Positions 2,859-31,286 of a stretch of 64,000 nt of DNA are shown in pieces (position 1 is the stretch's first letter; each line of letters begins with the position of its first letter). Where the stretch lies: NCBI GenBank assembly GCA_013178275.1, contig JABLWZ010000005.1, positions 124,001-188,000 on the forward strand, in the 5' to 3' direction. Below the pieces are notes generated by a model, which saw nothing but the letters and a program-made list of their open reading frames with translations, was not told the DNA's origin and did not search any database. The position numbers and the translations under genes were made by a program. This DNA comes from Bacillota bacterium. Lineage in GTDB: Bacteria; Bacillota; Ch66; Ch109.

Positions 2859-3341
2859 GTGGGTGACCGCATTGAAGAAATATACCAAGAACACGCCCGA
2901 AGCGTATACAGGTTCTTGCTCTCCCTGTCTCACGATGCGGATACGGCGGAAGAACTGACTCAGGAAACTTTCTATCGCGCCGTCTATTCTATCGGCAAAT
3001 ATGATGGTAGCTGTAAAATATCAGTTTGGCTCTGTCAGATTGCTAAACACGCCTGGTATCAAGAATTACGGAGGCGAAACCGACACGCCGCGCAGGAGTT
3101 GACTGAAGATATACCTGACTCGTCAACGCTCGAACAATCGATTCTGCTGACCAGTGATAAGTTATCCTTGTATAAGGCAATCCATGTCTTGAGCGAGCCG
3201 ATGAGAGAAGTTGTTCATATGAGGCTTTCCGGCGAGTTCTCCTTTTCGGAAATCGGGGAAGTCCTCGGCAAAAGCGAAAACTGGGCGCGGACAACTTTTT
3301 ATAGGGCAAAGCAAAAAATATTGGAGGTGTTGTCATGCTGA
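2859..3341 (+). CDS. ECF-type RNA polymerase sigma factor
   Basis: 160-residue sigma-70 family protein of extracytoplasmic-function size. Region 2 is seen around residues 10-65 (EELTQETFYRAVYSI, with the aromatic-rich stretch after it) and region 4, a helix-turn-helix, at about 110-155 (FSFSEIGEVLGKSENWARTT). It should direct core polymerase to a small regulon when released from its anti-sigma factor. The start is GTG, chosen because AAGGAGGCGAG lies just before it. It overlaps the downstream anti-sigma gene by 7 bases, so the two are co-translated. Base composition is clearly more AT-rich than ppdK, suggesting acquisition. The stimulus is unknown. Confidence 0.9.
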   Translation: MGDRIEEIYQEHARSVYRFLLSLSHDADTAEELTQETFYRAVYSIGKYDGSCKISVWLCQIAKHAWYQELRRRNRHAAQELTEDIPDSSTLEQSILLTSDKLSLYKAIHVLSEPMREVVHMRLSGEFSFSEIGEVLGKSENWARTTFYRAKQKILEVLSC

Positions 3342-3706
3342 AATGCTATATCGTCAAAGACTTATTGCCGGGTTATGTCGACGGACTGCTCAGCGAAGAA
3401 ACGACAGCGGAAGTCGAGAAGCATTTGAAGGAATGTAACGACTGCCGTTCGGACTATGAAAAGATGAAATCCCCTGTCAAGACACCGCTGCCGCCAACTA
3501 CGGGTAAAGAGGTGGACTTTTTGAAGAAAGTTAGGCGCAAGGCGTGGGGCATCGCTATCTGCCTATTTGTCATCGGTGTATTGGTTGGCATTGCCGGCAT
3601 TTACATTGGGGAAACCGATGACGCGCCCGGCGCTGCTCTAATTGGTATCCTGCTGATGATAGGCTTGGTGGTGCTTGGCGTGAAAGCCGCTTGGCGCAGA
3701 CGCTGA
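3335..3706 (+). CDS. Zinc-binding anti-sigma factor, membrane protein (zf-HC2 type)
   Basis: 123 residues. The N-terminal cytoplasmic part has the ZAS pattern: a His followed by three residues and CxxC (HLKECNDC, about residues 31-38) plus an early Cys, followed by two hydrophobic segments (roughly 68-90 and 98-117). This is the usual design of anti-sigma factors that hold an ECF sigma factor at the membrane until a signal is sensed. The gene overlaps the sigma gene by 7 bases, which supports partnership. What it senses cannot be told from the sequence. Confidence 0.88.
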   Translation: MLKCYIVKDLLPGYVDGLLSEETTAEVEKHLKECNDCRSDYEKMKSPVKTPLPPTTGKEVDFLKKVRRKAWGIAICLFVIGVLVGIAGIYIGETDDAPGAALIGILLMIGLVVLGVKAAWRRR

Positions 3707-3778
3707 GTGTTCCATAATGTGAAAAAATAGCTATAGGTCTTTGTTGCTAGCAGCGGCCCAGGCGGCACTGAAATCTTA

Positions 3779-3830
3779 GCCAGTTCCCTCCTTTGAGGGA
3801 GCTGGCGCAAAGCGCCTGAGGGAGTTTCTT
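3779..3830. repeat. Short palindromic intergenic repeat (BIME/MITE-like)
   Basis: Two stacked inverted repeats: GCCAGTTCCCTC with GAGGGAGCTGGC (one G-T mismatch, 4-nt loop), then GGCGC/GCGCC, followed by a second GAGGGAG. Such GAGGGAG-bearing palindromes are dispersed in many Clostridia genomes (general recollection, not checked). Only one copy is seen in this window. It lies between the anti-sigma gene and the second terminator-like hairpin. Confidence 0.5.
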
Positions 3831-3842
3831 TATAAAATCAGA

Positions 3843-3878
3843 CAGGGTATCGCATAGAAAGGTGCGATACCCTGCTTA
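3843..3878 (+). terminator. Terminator-like hairpin, near-duplicate of the ppdK terminator
   Basis: Stem CAGGGTATCGCA with TGCGATACCCTG, 8-nt loop, then CTTATATTATT. The stem is the same as the ppdK terminator except for a paired T-to-C/A-to-G change that keeps base pairing. It lies 137 bases past the anti-sigma stop and probably ends that transcript. It may also be a relic of the original ppdK 3' flank. Confidence 0.7.
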
Positions 3879-3952
3879 TATTATTCCGGTTGTTCTTTGT
3901 TTTGAACCTTGCAAATATTACAATCAAGTATTATTAAATATAAGATTAACTA

Positions 3953-3994
3953 TTGACTTTAATAATATTAAATGATAAATTTAATATTATTAAA
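3953..3994 (+). promoter_or_regulatory. Promoter with 15-bp palindromic operator candidate
   Basis: TTGACT (3953-3958) and TAAATT (3976-3981) are spaced by 17 bases. A perfect 15-bp inverted repeat, TTTAATAATATTAAA (3958-3972) and its complement (3980-3994), separated by 7 bases, covers the -10 and runs up to the ribosome-binding site of the next gene. The placement is typical of an autorepressor site; the downstream HTH protein is the natural candidate (inference). Confidence 0.6.
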
Positions 3995-4006
3995 GGGGGG
4001 CTGGCT

Positions 4007-4309
4007 ATGTCAATTGAAGTTGTCCCTGAATGGATGATAAATCTTGATGATGAAGATGTCTCATTCATTAAGAAATTCATTTTGGCGTCAGGCTCATTAA
4101 AGGAGATTGCAAACCAATACGGCGTGACATATCCGACTGTGAGATTAAGGCTTGACAGACTGATACAGAAAATCCAAATAGGCGAGGATACAGCAAACGA
4201 ACCCTACATCGCTTTAATTAAGCGTCTTGCGGTCAACGAAAAGGTTGATTTTAATACTGCAAAAATTCTGATTAACGAATACAAAAAATTGAAGGGGGCG
4301 CCGCAATGA
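4007..4309 (+). CDS. DUF2089-family DNA-binding protein
   Basis: 100 residues from the ATG at 4007, which follows AAAGGGGGG; the longer frame from 3953 has no ribosome-binding site and would overlap the promoter. It resembles DUF2089 proteins: an acidic stretch DDEDVSFIKKFILASGSL followed by a helix-turn-helix (KEIANQYGVTYPTVRLRLDR). A transcription regulator role fits the HTH and the palindrome at its promoter. The stop overlaps the next start (ATGA), and the following gene encodes a membrane protein, an arrangement common for DUF2089 loci. Target and signal are unknown. Confidence 0.75.
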   Translation: MSIEVVPEWMINLDDEDVSFIKKFILASGSLKEIANQYGVTYPTVRLRLDRLIQKIQIGEDTANEPYIALIKRLAVNEKVDFNTAKILINEYKKLKGAPQ

Positions 4310-4640
4310 GCAGAATAAGCAATATCCTTATTGTTATACCCACAGCACTTATTATCTTTGCGGTTCTCATATTTCTACAAGTTTTTCTATCAAAAAGAAA
4401 TAATAAGTGGTTGGGTTTAATGCTTCCTATAATTTGCTTCTGCGTGGCACTTGCCGGTTCTGGATATCAGGTTTATGAGTGGTCAACCAGCGCTGATGGC
4501 GGTGCTTTTGGCTGGATTAGTTCGAGCTCTTCACTTACAACATACCGACTGTCATTTTACTTGTGATTTACCTTGCTTACAGGGGAAAGCATCAGCGCAA
4601 ACAGGCTCTTGACAAAATGAACATTCAGGATTTGGAATGA
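4306..4640 (+). pseudogene. Small membrane protein, frameshifted
   Basis: The first frame gives two hydrophobic segments (residues about 6-29 and 36-52) and then runs into an unrelated tail, stopping at 4566. From about 4530 a different frame continues naturally as FTYNIPTVILLVIYLAYRGK and ends DKMNIQDLE at 4640, a C-terminus of the kind found on membrane proteins that accompany DUF2089 genes. A single frameshift near 4515-4530 therefore splits a three-helix protein of about 110 residues. It could be a real mutation or a sequencing error. Translationally coupled to the upstream regulator. Confidence 0.7.
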
Positions 4641-4757
4641 CAGTTTTACTAATGCGTGTCATAATAATAAAAACATGGATAGAGTGGAAAATGTTCGATA
4701 AACAGGGATTTGTCAAGTAGTTTGAAATTCGGGTTATTTATAGCAGAGGTTGACGTA

Positions 4758-5087
4758 ATGAAAAGAAAAGGATTTTACATAGCTGTTGGTATTTTAGCTG
4801 TTATTGTATTAAATTGTTCTATTTATGTTTTTACAGGAACAAAGAATACAGAAAAGCTTATGTGGTCATATCTTGAAGATAAAGGATATACCGGACAGGA
4901 AATACAAAGCATTGACGTTAATCACTCTTTTTTAAATACTATCTTATCATATAACGAATGGATCATACATGTTCGGTATGCTGATGAACCAGATGCAGTA
5001 TATATTTATACAGTTAAAAATGGGCAAATTAAAGCTGCGGGAGTTTCCGGAAGTGTTGATAAGGAAAAATTGAAGCATAAAGAGTGA
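4758..5087 (+). CDS. DUF3139-family membrane-anchored protein
   Basis: 109 residues from ATG 4758 (preceded by AGAGGTTGACGTA); the in-frame start at 4710 is less likely. One N-terminal membrane segment (about residues 5-24) is followed by an extracytoplasmic domain with the run VNHSFLNTILSYNEWIIHVRY, split here as VNHSFLNTILS and YNEWIIHVRY, typical of DUF3139. Function unknown. AT-rich like the two genes before it, and probably part of the same acquired group. Confidence 0.75.
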   Translation: MKRKGFYIAVGILAVIVLNCSIYVFTGTKNTEKLMWSYLEDKGYTGQEIQSIDVNHSFLNTILSYNEWIIHVRYADEPDAVYIYTVKNGQIKAAGVSGSVDKEKLKHKE

Positions 5088-5107: not shown

Positions 5108-5740
5108 TTATTTTAGGTTGCCATGCTCGGCCTGCCAAGACAGTGACCCTTCACGCGGATAGGTGTACTGCACCAGGGGTGCTTCCAACGCCGCGTGCGT
5201 TATGCCCGGACGGCCGAACACCCTCCGGCAGAAATCCAAGTCCTCTGTGTTTTCCATGTCCTCCCGGAAGCGCTCATCGCCTATCATTTCCCGTCGCCAG
5301 GCCCGCGACCATACGTTCCACCAATAACGCCCGTTATTTCCTTTCACAGACAAATATTTTTCCCCGCACATAAAGCCGAAATGCAGAGCGTCCACTGCGT
5401 GCTTACGAAGCGCTGAGTCCAGCATTGCAAACGCCCGGGTCGTAAAATACTCGTCATCCGAATCCAAAAACAGGATATACTCGCCCTTCGCGCTGTCCAG
5501 TCCGGCGTTCCGGGCGGCTCCCGCGTTGCCCCGGTCTATGAGGATCGGATCTGTGCCGCGCTGCCGCGCTATTTCTTCCGCGCCGTCCGAACAGGCGTCG
5601 CAAACAACGATCAGTTCGTAATCTTTAAATGTCTGCGCTGTTACGCTGTCAATCGCCCGGCCCAGATAGTCCGCCGTATTATGGGCGGGGATGATAACCG
5701 AAAATCTAACACTTTGCGATTCCCTGGCCGCATGGATCAC
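5108..5740 (-). CDS. Family 2 glycosyltransferase
   Basis: 210 residues, GT-A fold. FSVIIPAHNTADYLGRAIDS near the N-terminus is the nucleotide-sugar binding strand, and LFLDSDDEY (about residue 95) is the metal-binding DxD-type motif. Later ENTEDLDFCRRVF resembles the ED catalytic-base segment. It lies 8 bases downstream of the radical SAM gene and is the last gene of a four-gene minus-strand cassette led by a small GG-type peptide. It may glycosylate that peptide or a glycan; the acceptor cannot be told from sequence. Confidence 0.85.
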   Translation of the reverse strand: MIHAARESQSVRFSVIIPAHNTADYLGRAIDSVTAQTFKDYELIVVCDACSDGAEEIARQRGTDPILIDRGNAGAARNAGLDSAKGEYILFLDSDDEYFTTRAFAMLDSALRKHAVDALHFGFMCGEKYLSVKGNNGRYWWNVWSRAWRREMIGDERFREDMENTEDLDFCRRVFGRPGITHAALEAPLVQYTYPREGSLSWQAEHGNLK

Positions 5741-5748
5741 CTACATCC

Positions 5749-6918
5749 TCAGCTTTCCTCAAAAATACGATACGGCAGCGCCTTTGGGCTCTGCAGCCCG
5801 CGAGGCGCCGGCGTCCTGCCTCCCAGGCAATAACGGCAGGCCGTCAGGTGGGTCCGGCGCGTTTGAAAACGGATGAGACGCTCCCGCAGATGAACGGTAT
5901 CGCGTAAATCAACATATTCATCCGTCGGCTTTGGTACGGCGCCCAGGGCCGCCCCATGCGCCGCCACGGGGCACAGATAGAGCTCATGGCCCAGCAGGGC
6001 GGCACAGCTTTCTTTTATACGGCACCGGCGGTACAATTCCTGAGTCTCCTCAAGGGTACGTTCGTAGCGGATTAAATCTCCCACGTCGTACCACGGGGAA
6101 TCCGCGGGATAAAGCAGATGCGCGACATGATATTCCCTGAGCTGGGCTGTCAATTCCCCGGCACGGCTCTTCGCCACCCCGTAATCACTGATCAAAACAG
6201 TGGCCTTGGGACAGCCCGCAAGTGCGGCCAGAGTTTTTTCCGGCAGCAGCAGCGTACCGTTGGTGGGGATGTCGATGCAGAAGATCTGGTCCGACTCGCC
6301 GAAACATTCGATGAACCTGTTAATTCGTTCAGGAAACAGGAACGGTTCCCCGCCGATGACGCGCACGCTGGTCACCCCGACGCCTGCGCGCAGGATATTC
6401 CCGAACGATTTAAGGTAATCCTGCTCGTCGTACTCCCGGGGCGAGGTGTAAAACTGCATCCGGTGGGCGCAATAGCGGCAGCGGAGATTGCAGCGCTGGC
6501 TCACGACCACATCGATTCCCGGCATGATAAAAACCTCGCTGCGCCGCCGGAAAAAACGGCCCATGAGGTTTTCATAGCCCTTGCGCTCATACGGGTCTTG
6601 CAGGAGCAGGCTCATATAGAACCAGCTGTTCAGCGTCATTTCGGGCAAAAATCGCCGGTACCTCGCATAGAAGACCTTGCCGCCCAGCAGGAAGTTGTTT
6701 CCGCGCTGACGGGGCAAGGATTCCGCGCCGATGATTTGGGCCTGCCGGTAGCTGCCGCCAGCCCTTTCGTCGTCGCAGATAAACACGCTGTCCCTGACGC
6801 CGTTTTCCCAGAGGAAATCAACAGCCGGGGCAACCTTCGCCAAAACGCCGCACAGGACGATCGGGCGCCCGTTCCATTTTTTCAGTTCGAATTGCCTGAT
6901 CCGCGGCGCTTCCATCAT
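5749..6918 (-). CDS. Radical SAM protein with N-terminal Rossmann-like segment
   Basis: 389 residues. A CxxxCxxC motif, CNLRCRYC, at residues 143-150 binds the 4Fe-4S cluster that cleaves S-adenosylmethionine, and GGEPFLFPE follows. The first ~90 residues look like a nucleotide-binding Rossmann-type unit (GRPIVLCGV, ICDDER). The C-terminal part has further cysteines (CRIKESC, LYLCP, CRYCLGG) that could hold auxiliary clusters in SPASM style. ATGA overlap with the upstream glycosyltransferase gene means co-translation. In this context it may modify the peptide encoded first in the cassette, or act in surface-glycan synthesis as some rSAM/GT neighbours do. Confidence 0.85.
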   Translation of the reverse strand: MMEAPRIRQFELKKWNGRPIVLCGVLAKVAPAVDFLWENGVRDSVFICDDERAGGSYRQAQIIGAESLPRQRGNNFLLGGKVFYARYRRFLPEMTLNSWFYMSLLLQDPYERKGYENLMGRFFRRRSEVFIMPGIDVVVSQRCNLRCRYCAHRMQFYTSPREYDEQDYLKSFGNILRAGVGVTSVRVIGGEPFLFPERINRFIECFGESDQIFCIDIPTNGTLLLPEKTLAALAGCPKATVLISDYGVAKSRAGELTAQLREYHVAHLLYPADSPWYDVGDLIRYERTLEETQELYRRCRIKESCAALLGHELYLCPVAAHGAALGAVPKPTDEYVDLRDTVHLRERLIRFQTRRTHLTACRYCLGGRTPAPRGLQSPKALPYRIFEES

Positions 6919-8027
6919 ACAGTCCTCTCCCCGTCTCGGGCAAGGCTCGCGAAATACAGGCGGTTCAGCGCCGCGCTGAGGCTTTCCGGGCAGGCGGCGG
7001 CAGCTTTTTCGTTGTATTCGGCGGCCTTTCCCATGCGGCCGGCCCGGGCGTAAAGCTTGCTCAGCTTCAGGCAGGGGACGTAAACATCGTAGGCCGGAAA
7101 GGCAAGGCCGAAGCCGCGCAGGTCAAAGGGACAGGAAAGGGCTTTGAGGTACCAGAACTCCGCCTGCGAATCCTCACCTAAACGGGCGAAACCGTTGCCC
7201 ATCTCGCAGCACAACAGGGAGGTGGGCTTAAACCGCTCCAAGGCTTCGGCCAGCTCGTCCAGCGAATCCCGCCAGCGCTCCAGGCACTGCAGGCTCCAGA
7301 TGGCAAACGGCAGCGCGTGGGCGATATCGCTCAGGCTTCGGCTCTCTTTAAGCCGGAGGTATCTGGCGTACGCTTTTTCGTAATGTCGGTGCGCGTATAG
7401 CTCGCGGCAGTAGTAGGCGTCGTTGAAGGGTATAAAGGCTGTTCCTTCCGCTTCCATTTTCTCGAAAATGCGGAGGTTCCGGCCCGGGTCGTTTACCAAG
7501 GCTTTTTTGTGCCAGATGGTGATATTTTCGGCAATATAGCCCTTATATTCCCTGACCTGGCCGTCGGGTGACGCGGCGCGCATGGGGATGCCTTCGTGGA
7601 CGGGGAATACCCACCTGGCTCCCAGACTGCGCCGAATCATCCGGTCCCGCAGCACTGCCGTCGCCAGATTGCTTTTTTCCGCGCCCCGCATCACCATATA
7701 AACCACGTCGATATCCGGCGGCAGGGTGCGCTTTAAGGCCGCGATCCGTTCGCAGTCCTCCGCCTCGACGACCTCATCCGCGTCAAGCCACATGATATAA
7801 TCGTAGTTCGCGAGGGAATAGGAGAAATTCCGCGCCTCGGCAAAATCATCGTGCCAGGCAAATTCATAGACCTGATCCGTAAAGCCGCGCGCGATCTCCC
7901 GCGTGCGGTCGGCCGAACCCGTGTCCACGACGATAATCTCGTCCGCGAACCGCTTCGCGCAGGCAAGGCAACGGGCCAGCACCGGCTCCTCATCCTTGGC
8001 GATTAGGCACACACTCAGGGTGAACAT
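6915..8027 (-). CDS. SunS-like family 2 glycosyltransferase with TPR-like C-terminus
   Basis: 370 residues. The N-terminal domain has LSVCLIAKDEEPVLARCL, VVDTGSADRTREIA and MWLDADEV, the hallmark strings of the SunS/TPR-type GT2 group, which includes the peptide S-glycosyltransferase of sublancin. The C-terminal 150 residues are helical repeats (AYARYLRLKES, AEFWYLKALS, AAEYNEKAAAACPE) resembling TPRs. It lies 50 bases downstream of a small GG-leader peptide gene and overlaps the radical SAM gene by 4 bases. Glycosylation of the peptide is a reasonable inference; the core has no cysteine, so O- or N-linked transfer would be needed. Confidence 0.85.
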   Translation of the reverse strand: MFTLSVCLIAKDEEPVLARCLACAKRFADEIIVVDTGSADRTREIARGFTDQVYEFAWHDDFAEARNFSYSLANYDYIMWLDADEVVEAEDCERIAALKRTLPPDIDVVYMVMRGAEKSNLATAVLRDRMIRRSLGARWVFPVHEGIPMRAASPDGQVREYKGYIAENITIWHKKALVNDPGRNLRIFEKMEAEGTAFIPFNDAYYCRELYAHRHYEKAYARYLRLKESRSLSDIAHALPFAIWSLQCLERWRDSLDELAEALERFKPTSLLCCEMGNGFARLGEDSQAEFWYLKALSCPFDLRGFGLAFPAYDVYVPCLKLSKLYARAGRMGKAAEYNEKAAAACPESLSAALNRLYFASLARDGERTV

Positions 8028-8076
8028 GCCATACTTCTTTCAACTGCAGGGCCTGTCATTTTATCACTCCTGCCTA

Positions 8077-8328
8077 TTACCCGAAGGTTGTGTTTCCGAA
8101 TGCAAATGTTGAGTTAACAATATTATGACCTTGAATGCCCAAACCGCCCACGATATCGTTCAGATCGTCGTCGTCGAGGGGGAACCCGTCAAAATCCCGG
8201 ACCGCAGCCTCGATTTCCTCCGCCTTGTAACCGAGTTCTGCTGCCGCTTTCCTGAAGGCCTGCTCCGAGGCCAAGGCATTTGCTCCAAGCTTTTCAAAGA
8301 TTTTTTTCAGCATGTCAGTCATTGCCAT
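8077..8328 (-). CDS. Putative RiPP precursor peptide with Gly-Gly leader
   Basis: 83 residues starting at the ATG at 8328, preceded by CGGAGGG at 8-nt spacing; the frame is open to 8367 but without a ribosome site. Residues 1-62 form an acidic, helical leader ending FPLDDDDLNDIVGG, of the Nif11/NHLP-like kind cut by C39 peptidases after GG. The predicted core is 21 residues, ending NSTFAFGNTTFG: rich in Asn, Thr, Ser, Phe and Gly, with two N-x-T sequons and no Cys. The next three genes on the same strand encode two glycosyltransferases and a radical SAM protein. No peptidase or ABC exporter is seen nearby. I do not recognise the family. Confidence 0.7.
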   Translation of the reverse strand: MAMTDMLKKIFEKLGANALASEQAFRKAAAELGYKAEEIEAAVRDFDGFPLDDDDLNDIVGGLGIQGHNIVNSTFAFGNTTFG

Positions 8329-30284: not shown

Positions 30285-31286
30285 ATGGATCGCATGATTC
30301 AACTGCAGAACCAGATTTCCACCCTGCGCCAGAACCTTGACCAGATCTCACAGATGGCGGCTTACATGTCACAGTCTGAGCGCAACAACCAGGTTCAACT
30401 CGAACACCTGGCACAGGCGGAGCGGGCTGCTACCCAACAGCTGCAGCACATCCAGCAGATGTGCAACTCCCTCAGCCAGCAGCTCAGCTCCATCAGCACA
30501 GTAGACCAGTTTGGCACCAACTACTCAACCCAGGCTTTTAATCCTTCTTTCAGCGGCATGGGGACCCAGAGCTATACCCCCAGCTACTTCACCGGGAGCT
30601 CCTTCGCCCCTTCCGCCTCTTTCAGCGGGCTGGGATCAAACCTGGGCGGCATCGGCAGCGGCCTGGGGGTCAGCTCCAGCATCCCCTTCACCGGAATGAC
30701 CGGGACTTCTACTGCTTACAACCCTTCCGGGATTGGGGCGGGGGCTTTCCAGTACCCCCGGTATATTCAGGGGATAGGCGCCGGTGACTGGCAGACCAGT
30801 GGGGTGAATGTATCGGGTCTGGGCGCAGCCGGGCTCGGGACCGCCGGTTTTGGCACCACCGCGGCGACCTCGTTTCCCTCCGCCAATTTCCCGCTGACTT
30901 CCACCGCGGGCCTGGGGACGGCAAACTTTGGTACGACCACAGCGGGTCTGGGGGCGTCAAACTGGGGCGCGACAGCAACCGCTTATAACCCGGCCGGCAT
31001 CGGGGCCAGTACCTACCAGTATCCCAAGGTGATACCGGGAATCGGCACCAACGACTGGGTTACCAGCGGCCAGGGGACCGGCGTGATGGGGACCAGCGGG
31101 GTCGGCGCGTCGACCTATCTCCCCTTCAGCGGTATCGGCGCCAGTGGTTTCGGATCCAGCGGCTCCAATGCCAGCGCGGTCGGCACCGGAATGGGCATGG
31201 GTTCGATGGGGCTGGGCTCGACTGCGGGGTTAGGAAACTTCTCCGCCTTACCGAGTTCCATCTACCAGTCGCCCAACTACCGTTAG
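30285..31286 (+). CDS. Low-complexity Gly/Ser/Thr-rich protein with coiled-coil head, coat-like
   Basis: 333 residues. Residues 1-70 are a Gln-rich coiled coil (IQLQNQISTLRQNLDQISQM). The remaining 260 are Gly/Ser/Thr/Ala with a long internal duplication: AYNPSGIGAGAFQYP and AYNPAGIGASTYQYP each followed by IxGIGxxDWxTSG, and many GLGTA/GFGTT units. No signal peptide or cysteine. The composition recalls spore coat/exosporium structural proteins (inference). AGGAGG precedes the ATG by 13 bases, and a terminator follows. Confidence 0.75.
   Translation: MDRMIQLQNQISTLRQNLDQISQMAAYMSQSERNNQVQLEHLAQAERAATQQLQHIQQMCNSLSQQLSSISTVDQFGTNYSTQAFNPSFSGMGTQSYTPSYFTGSSFAPSASFSGLGSNLGGIGSGLGVSSSIPFTGMTGTSTAYNPSGIGAGAFQYPRYIQGIGAGDWQTSGVNVSGLGAAGLGTAGFGTTAATSFPSANFPLTSTAGLGTANFGTTTAGLGASNWGATATAYNPAGIGASTYQYPKVIPGIGTNDWVTSGQGTGVMGTSGVGASTYLPFSGIGASGFGSSGSNASAVGTGMGMGSMGLGSTAGLGNFSALPSSIYQSPNYR

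Follow-up and report, generated by a model that had tools for sequence, protein, structure and literature searches.

What would a bacterium make from a short peptide with an acidic leader when the genes beside it encode two glycosyltransferases and a radical S-adenosylmethionine (SAM) protein? These genes form a cassette on the minus strand at positions 5108-8328 of a 64-kb stretch of a Bacillota bacterium genome, called the window here, in which positions count from the first letter. Our preferred answer, to which we assign a probability of roughly one half, is that the cassette makes a secreted glycopeptide through SunS/ThuS-like glycosylation, a change to the sugar by a twitch-type radical SAM enzyme, and export by an NHLM exporter. 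The genes, their homologies, the conservation of their neighborhood and the presence of an exporter come directly from computation. The label that fits the cassette best is a Nif11/NHLM-style ribosomally synthesized and post-translationally modified peptide (RiPP) in which glycosylation is combined with tailoring by a radical SAM enzyme.

Organization of the cassette

The cassette begins with a gene for an 83-residue precursor peptide (8077-8328, minus strand, as for all cassette genes), for which the sequence and two relatives delimit a leader of residues 1-62, ending in Gly-Gly (61-62), and a core of residues 63-83, LGIQGHNIVNSTFAFGNTTFG. The leader has a net charge of -7, and the 21-residue core lacks Cys. 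The next gene encodes a GT-A glycosyltransferase of family GT2 with C-terminal tetratricopeptide repeat (TPR) helices that resembles SunS, ThuS and GmaR (6915-8027; Pfam GT2, sequence and fold matches). It is followed by the gene for the radical SAM protein, which combines an N-terminal Rossmann-like region, a CX3CX2C core and a twitch-like set of C-terminal Cys residues (5749-6918; PF04055, 1.3e-10, a match to the solved structure 7WZV, and aligned relatives). The last gene, with a GTG start, encodes a short GT2 glycosyltransferase of 210 residues (5108-5740; PF00535, 1.4e-23). A gap of 49 nt separates the peptide and TPR glycosyltransferase genes, the TPR glycosyltransferase and radical SAM genes overlap by 4 nt (ATGA), and 8 nt lie between the radical SAM and short GT2 genes. 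A 14-codon open reading frame (ORF), MTGPAVERSMACSP, is read from the sequence at 8015-8059 of the same strand; it has a strong Shine-Dalgarno sequence, lies between the peptide and glycosyltransferase genes and overlaps the start of the latter, and it may possibly couple translation of the glycosyltransferase to the peptide gene.

This layout agrees with the first-pass annotation of this DNA, which had described four minus-strand ORFs with ATGA and 8-nt spacings. The sequence likewise bears out its Gly-Gly leader peptide with a Cys-free 21-residue core, its SunS-like glycosyltransferase and its radical SAM protein with a CxxxCxxC motif and extra Cys residues. The genome measures 4.77 Mb, and the cassette lies well within one of its contigs (197 kb), which rules out an edge effect of the assembly. 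An acidic-leader-GG pattern, devised after the peptide had been seen, is matched by only 1 of the 252 ORFs of 50-130 residues in the window, namely the peptide ORF. This single match, along with the retention of the leader and GG in two unrelated genomes, indicates that the peptide and its leader-GG pattern are more than chance. We found no riboswitch or other RNA element upstream of the cassette, where one sub-threshold snoRNA match was read as chance.

Conservation of the unit in distant genomes

A scan with the peptide pattern of one genome per species, covering approximately 85,000 species, yielded two relatives, one in the Eubacteriales metagenome-assembled genome (MAG) S26M_St_34 (L002) and one in the Treponema MAG RUI140 (L003). 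All three leaders have ELGY, DFDGFPLDDDDL and an invariant GG in common. The leader of the window peptide is 57% and 52% identical to those of the two relatives and its core only 15% and 20%; a conserved leader joined to a divergent core is the usual pattern of precursor peptides. None of the three cores (LGIQGHNIVNSTFAFGNTTFG, MTMHKAPMRNRGR and LGVAPLYRWNVKNGR) contains Cys, and those of the two relatives are 13-15 residues long.

The peptide occurs together with a TPR glycosyltransferase and a radical SAM protein in all three genomes. The radical SAM proteins of the Eubacteriales and Treponema clusters are 33-34% identical to that of the window and 52% identical to each other. The window enzyme finds its best match in each cluster in the glycosyltransferase encoded next to the peptide, with 43-44% identity over its length, and the other TPR glycosyltransferases there match only its first half. 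The gene order in Treponema is double TPR glycosyltransferase, peptide, double GT8, radical SAM protein and GT2. In the Eubacteriales genome it is GT8, radical SAM protein, two GT2, two TPR glycosyltransferases, peptide, NAD-dependent sugar epimerase/decarboxylase, GT2, a short HlyD-like ORF, a C39 ATP-binding cassette (ABC) protein and a second ABC protein. The two clusters encode five to six glycosyltransferase domains each. Core and gene order in related genomes, the comparison that the first-pass annotation had proposed, reveal a cassette that is kept while its cores have diverged. The GG, whose absence in relatives would have counted against a precursor, is invariant in the three, and the only homologs found without a peptide are remote relatives of the radical SAM protein that lie in glycan loci.

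A profile of the three peptides found no further member in 328 other genomes of the window's phylum or in 320 other genomes of the Eubacteriales relative's class. Likewise, the radical SAM profile found no further cassette, and one glycan-locus member, in the Treponema family (274 genomes) and the order of the Eubacteriales relative (392 genomes). Two other genomes of the window organism's own family have neither the peptide nor the radical SAM protein. Plasmids gave no peptide match and a single radical SAM relative, from Nonomuraea; phages gave no radical SAM match, and viral contigs gave matches to the radical SAM core only, all of them distant. The peptide is very rare, and its scatter across distant genomes suggests horizontal transfer.

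The glycosyltransferases

By sequence, the solved structures matched by the TPR glycosyltransferase include GmaR (1.9e-30), SunS (3.4e-12) and the ThuS entry 7msk (8.6e-9). GmaR is presumably a flagellin O-linked N-acetylglucosamine transferase, its database entry naming it only GmaR or antirepressor. In a fold search ThuS and SunS came first, with low global TM-scores (0.25-0.3) and a large root-mean-square deviation, so that the match supports only the order of the domains and the local fold. The underlying model has a predicted local distance difference test (pLDDT) score of about 90 in much of the TPR tail and is of low quality in some regions of the GT-A domain. The SunS equivalog model TIGR04195 gives 39 bits against a cut-off of 350, and the enzyme is thus not a SunS orthologue. 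Because SunS and ThuS, the S-glycosyltransferases of glycocins, glycosylate peptides, the resemblance supports the same function here, and the TPR enzyme is probably a peptide glycosyltransferase. The short GT2 is 30% identical to one GT2 of the Eubacteriales cluster and is probably a chain-extending enzyme. Among polar side chains, Asn alone is shared by the three cores.

The radical SAM protein

The Cys residues of the radical SAM core are C143-x3-C147-x2-C150, and the C-terminal region contains C299, C316, C361 and C364 along with an extra C305. The four C-terminal Cys align with those of 7WZV, the nearest solved relative, which the radical SAM profile matches with an E value of 1.5e-17 over both the core and the Cys-rich C-terminal domain. 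The C-terminus thus has the pattern of a twitch-type domain with one predicted auxiliary cluster. The other solved matches, which include MoaA, PqqE (6C8V, 7e-7) and 5WGG (1e-5), range from 3e-7 to 1e-5 and cover mainly the core.

The more distant relatives are found mostly in loci of glycan type, alongside ORFs that by eye resemble LicD, glycosyltransferases, sugar-nucleotide dehydrogenases and flippases. A CPRAAHG-type motif recurs in distant relatives, including a glycan-locus member, and some of them have a similar Rossmann-like N-terminus. The Eubacteriales cassette cluster also contains its sugar-nucleotide epimerase/decarboxylase and GT8. Since the protein is nearer to 7WZV and to the glycan-locus proteins than to RiPP maturases, a sugar is the likelier substrate, and we favor the reading, drawn from these kinships, that its substrate is a sugar already attached and not the peptide itself.

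Among the relatives, those at L027 (2639-3811), L028 (9111-10010), L029 (8450-9361) and L031 (8719-9969) belong to an uncharacterised family of twitch-type radical SAM proteins in surface-glycan-like loci, and they are likely sugar-modifying enzymes. The family member from Nonomuraea gerenzanensis (L067, 11065-12771, frame partly by eye) lies near one gene that by eye resembles an aldose epimerase and others that resemble AMP ligases, in what is possibly a secondary-metabolite locus.

The exporter

The first-pass annotation had suggested a search for a C39-peptidase exporter elsewhere, and one was found. The window genome contains a single C39 domain above the Pfam cut-off, and this domain is part of a complete NHLM export locus on another contig (C3), all three parts of which score above curated cut-offs. 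Exactly one NHLM C39 exporter (TIGR03796) scores above the cut-off in each of the three cassette genomes. By comparison, one is present in 9 of the 199 further genomes sampled from the window's phylum (approximately 4.5%). In the Eubacteriales genome the two NHLM ABC genes belong to the cluster itself and come after the peptide gene.

The contig C3 locus (L005, 32-11667) is a separate RiPP-like locus. Besides the full NHLM exporter, it encodes six Nif11-type GG peptides with Trp at the end of their cores, a radical SAM/SPASM protein and a product that resembles periplasmic binding proteins. Two Nif11-domain GG peptides (L003, 14170-14502 and 14780-15097) lie 1.1-1.7 kb past the Treponema cassette. 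A Treponema NHLM exporter locus (L032, 3975-4517 and 5632-11727) includes a minus-strand ORF fragment like the radical SAM protein of the contig C3 locus, of which it is perhaps a decayed relative.

In the window itself, the segment at 2859-5087 has 41.5% G+C, compared with 57.8% in the adjoining cassette, and encodes a sigma-factor/anti-sigma-like pair and small ORFs. Further away, at 30285-31286, is a gene for a 333-residue protein with Gly/Ser/Thr-rich repeat units of the GIGAGAFQYPRYIQGIGAGDW type.

Proposed pathway and alternatives

In the pathway that we propose, the peptide would be produced with its acidic leader, and the SunS/ThuS-like TPR glycosyltransferase would bind it and add to the core a sugar, perhaps lengthened by the second GT2. 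Next, the radical SAM enzyme, of the twitch type, would alter the sugar, most likely by dehydrogenation or epimerization at a hydroxyl-bearing carbon. Finally, the C39 peptidase of the NHLM exporter, encoded on another contig, would cut after Gly-Gly and the core would be exported. Given the class of exporter, our guess is that the product is a bacteriocin or a signal. A more elaborate version, which we put forward tentatively, is that a short oligosaccharide is built on the peptide as a secreted scaffold, with SunS-like priming, extension by further glycosyltransferases and an oxidized or epimerized sugar made on the peptide by the radical SAM enzyme.

Several points weigh against a secreted glycopeptide made in this way. 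The cassette family has three members only. In neither the window genome nor Treponema is the exporter linked to the cassette, so that for both we infer export in trans; the window genome has it in the separate Nif11 peptide locus. No Ser, Thr or Cys is common to the cores, and the Treponema core has none of the three, which argues against plain Ser/Thr/Cys glycocin chemistry. The identity of 7WZV as the spectinomycin dehydrogenase SpeY is tentative: its database name is only "4Fe-4S cluster-binding domain-containing protein", and no open-licence paper found confirms it. The structure predicted by AlphaFold for the radical SAM protein (mean pLDDT 47.5) was too poor to use and a fold search with it meaningless. 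All of the enzyme activities and the product are predictions, and we deduce the order of the steps and the choice of a sugar as substrate of the radical SAM enzyme, as we do the export in trans.

The radical SAM proteins described beside GG-leader peptides are mostly taken as peptide maturases, and the enzyme could act on the core itself, by a C-C or ether crosslink, epimerization or oxidation at Asn, Thr, Ser or an aromatic residue, with glycosylation as a separate step. Its weak NCBIfam matches do include the peptide maturases ScmE/F, PapB and WgkB, but these span only the core and fall far under the cut-offs, and the match to 7WZV is ahead of those to the solved peptide and cofactor maturases that were found by about ten orders of magnitude. 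Moreover, Pfam finds no PqqD/RiPP recognition element (RRE) domain, the cores have no obvious crosslink motif in common, and relatives of the enzyme occur in glycan loci without such a peptide. We consider action on the core somewhat unlikely, and the first-pass annotation's claim of radical SAM chemistry on a Cys-free core is not supported as it was put, the kinship with 7WZV and the glycan-locus proteins favoring a sugar. The cassette could also be a miniature glycan locus, whose enzymes build a surface or soluble glycan beside a peptide that is an unmodified GG-type bacteriocin or a chance neighbor. The wider radical SAM family does lie in surface-glycan loci, and five to six glycosyltransferase domains are many for a core of 13-15 residues in the two relatives. 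However, the same peptide family, adjoining glycosyltransferase and radical SAM protein recur in three distant genomes, the closest glycosyltransferase belongs with SunS and GmaR in type, and no flippase, polymerase or lipid-carrier gene is seen in the cassette, all of which leaves a glycan locus improbable.

In a scheme like that of mycofactocin, which unites a peptide, a radical SAM protein and GT2 glycosylation (PMC7491314, PMC3023750), the radical SAM enzyme might instead make a small redox compound out of residues of the core, with glycosylation to follow. We give this very little credence and rejected mycofactocin itself, since no mycofactocin model scores above its cut-off: MftF (TIGR03965) gives 15.9 and 42.3 bits against 280, and MftC (TIGR03962) does not appear in the list of the 25 best NCBIfam matches (to E 0.0011). 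In addition, the cassette has no RRE, peptidase or FMN-dehydrogenase gene, the GG leader and NHLM exporter indicate secretion, and the C-termini of the cores are not conserved in all three.

If the secreted glycopeptide is real, it would join peptide glycosylation and radical SAM chemistry in a single secreted product, and would suggest that RiPPs recruited radical SAM enzymes from glycan loci. Should the oligosaccharide scaffold hold, it would be, to our knowledge, the first RiPP class with radical SAM chemistry on the glycan and not the peptide. The compact set of four genes and its two divergent natural replicates offer a test system for radical SAM action on a peptide-attached sugar, and the Treponema core would show whether SunS-type enzymes accept another residue, such as Asn, Tyr, Trp or Arg.

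Comparison with known systems

No description of this cassette's combination was found in the open-licence literature. The first-pass annotation had called the combination unfamiliar, and this stands in that no described system was found; the pairing of radical SAM chemistry with glycosylation does have precedents, in mycofactocin and in Bacteroidales. Its view that the cassette is not a glycocin, sactipeptide or ranthipeptide holds on the features tested. Glycocins (sublancin/SunS, thurandacin/ThuS, thermoglycocin) are alike in having a leader precursor, C39-type export and a GT-A glycosyltransferase with a helical tail. Judged by the features of that class (PMC12457901), the cassette differs in that its core lacks Cys and thus disulfides, no thiol-disulfide oxidoreductase is seen, and a radical SAM protein is added. 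With Cys absent from 3/3 cores and the SunS model far under its cut-off, a glycocin was rejected. A sactipeptide or ranthipeptide was rejected as well, there being no Cys donor in the core and the maturase models PapB and GggB giving 31 of 340 and 20 of 650 bits.

Nif11 and NHLP peptides combine with many maturases and one type of exporter (PMC3023750). The cassette resembles these RiPPs in its acidic-ended GG leader, the single NHLM exporter per genome and the Nif11 peptides near the Treponema cassette. Its leader, however, matches no Nif11 or NHLP model (Pfam, NCBIfam, E up to 1), and hhalign aligns the cassette peptide profile only weakly with the window genome's own Nif11 peptides (probability 18%). 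Mycofactocin (MftA/MftC/MftF) is similar in its ribosomal peptide, radical SAM protein and GT2 glycosyltransferase, whereas the cassette has no visible counterparts of MftB, MftD and MftE, a twitch-like radical SAM protein, and a GG leader with predicted secretion. The Bacteroidales regions, found in silico, contain a radical SAM protein, LanC and GlyS (PMC10352776). By description, they are alike in placing a radical SAM protein with a GlyS-type glycosyltransferase in one region; they differ in including a LanC protein and in belonging to another phylum. Lastly, the twitch enzyme BtrN oxidizes an alcohol in butirosin biosynthesis and holds its auxiliary cluster by four Cys (PMC9012708). The cassette protein shares with the twitch dehydrogenases of aminocyclitol and aminoglycoside pathways (BtrN and, if it is SpeY, 7WZV) the CX3CX2C core and one C-terminal auxiliary cluster, here predicted, and is set apart from them by an extra N-terminal Rossmann-like region and by its place in a peptide cassette.

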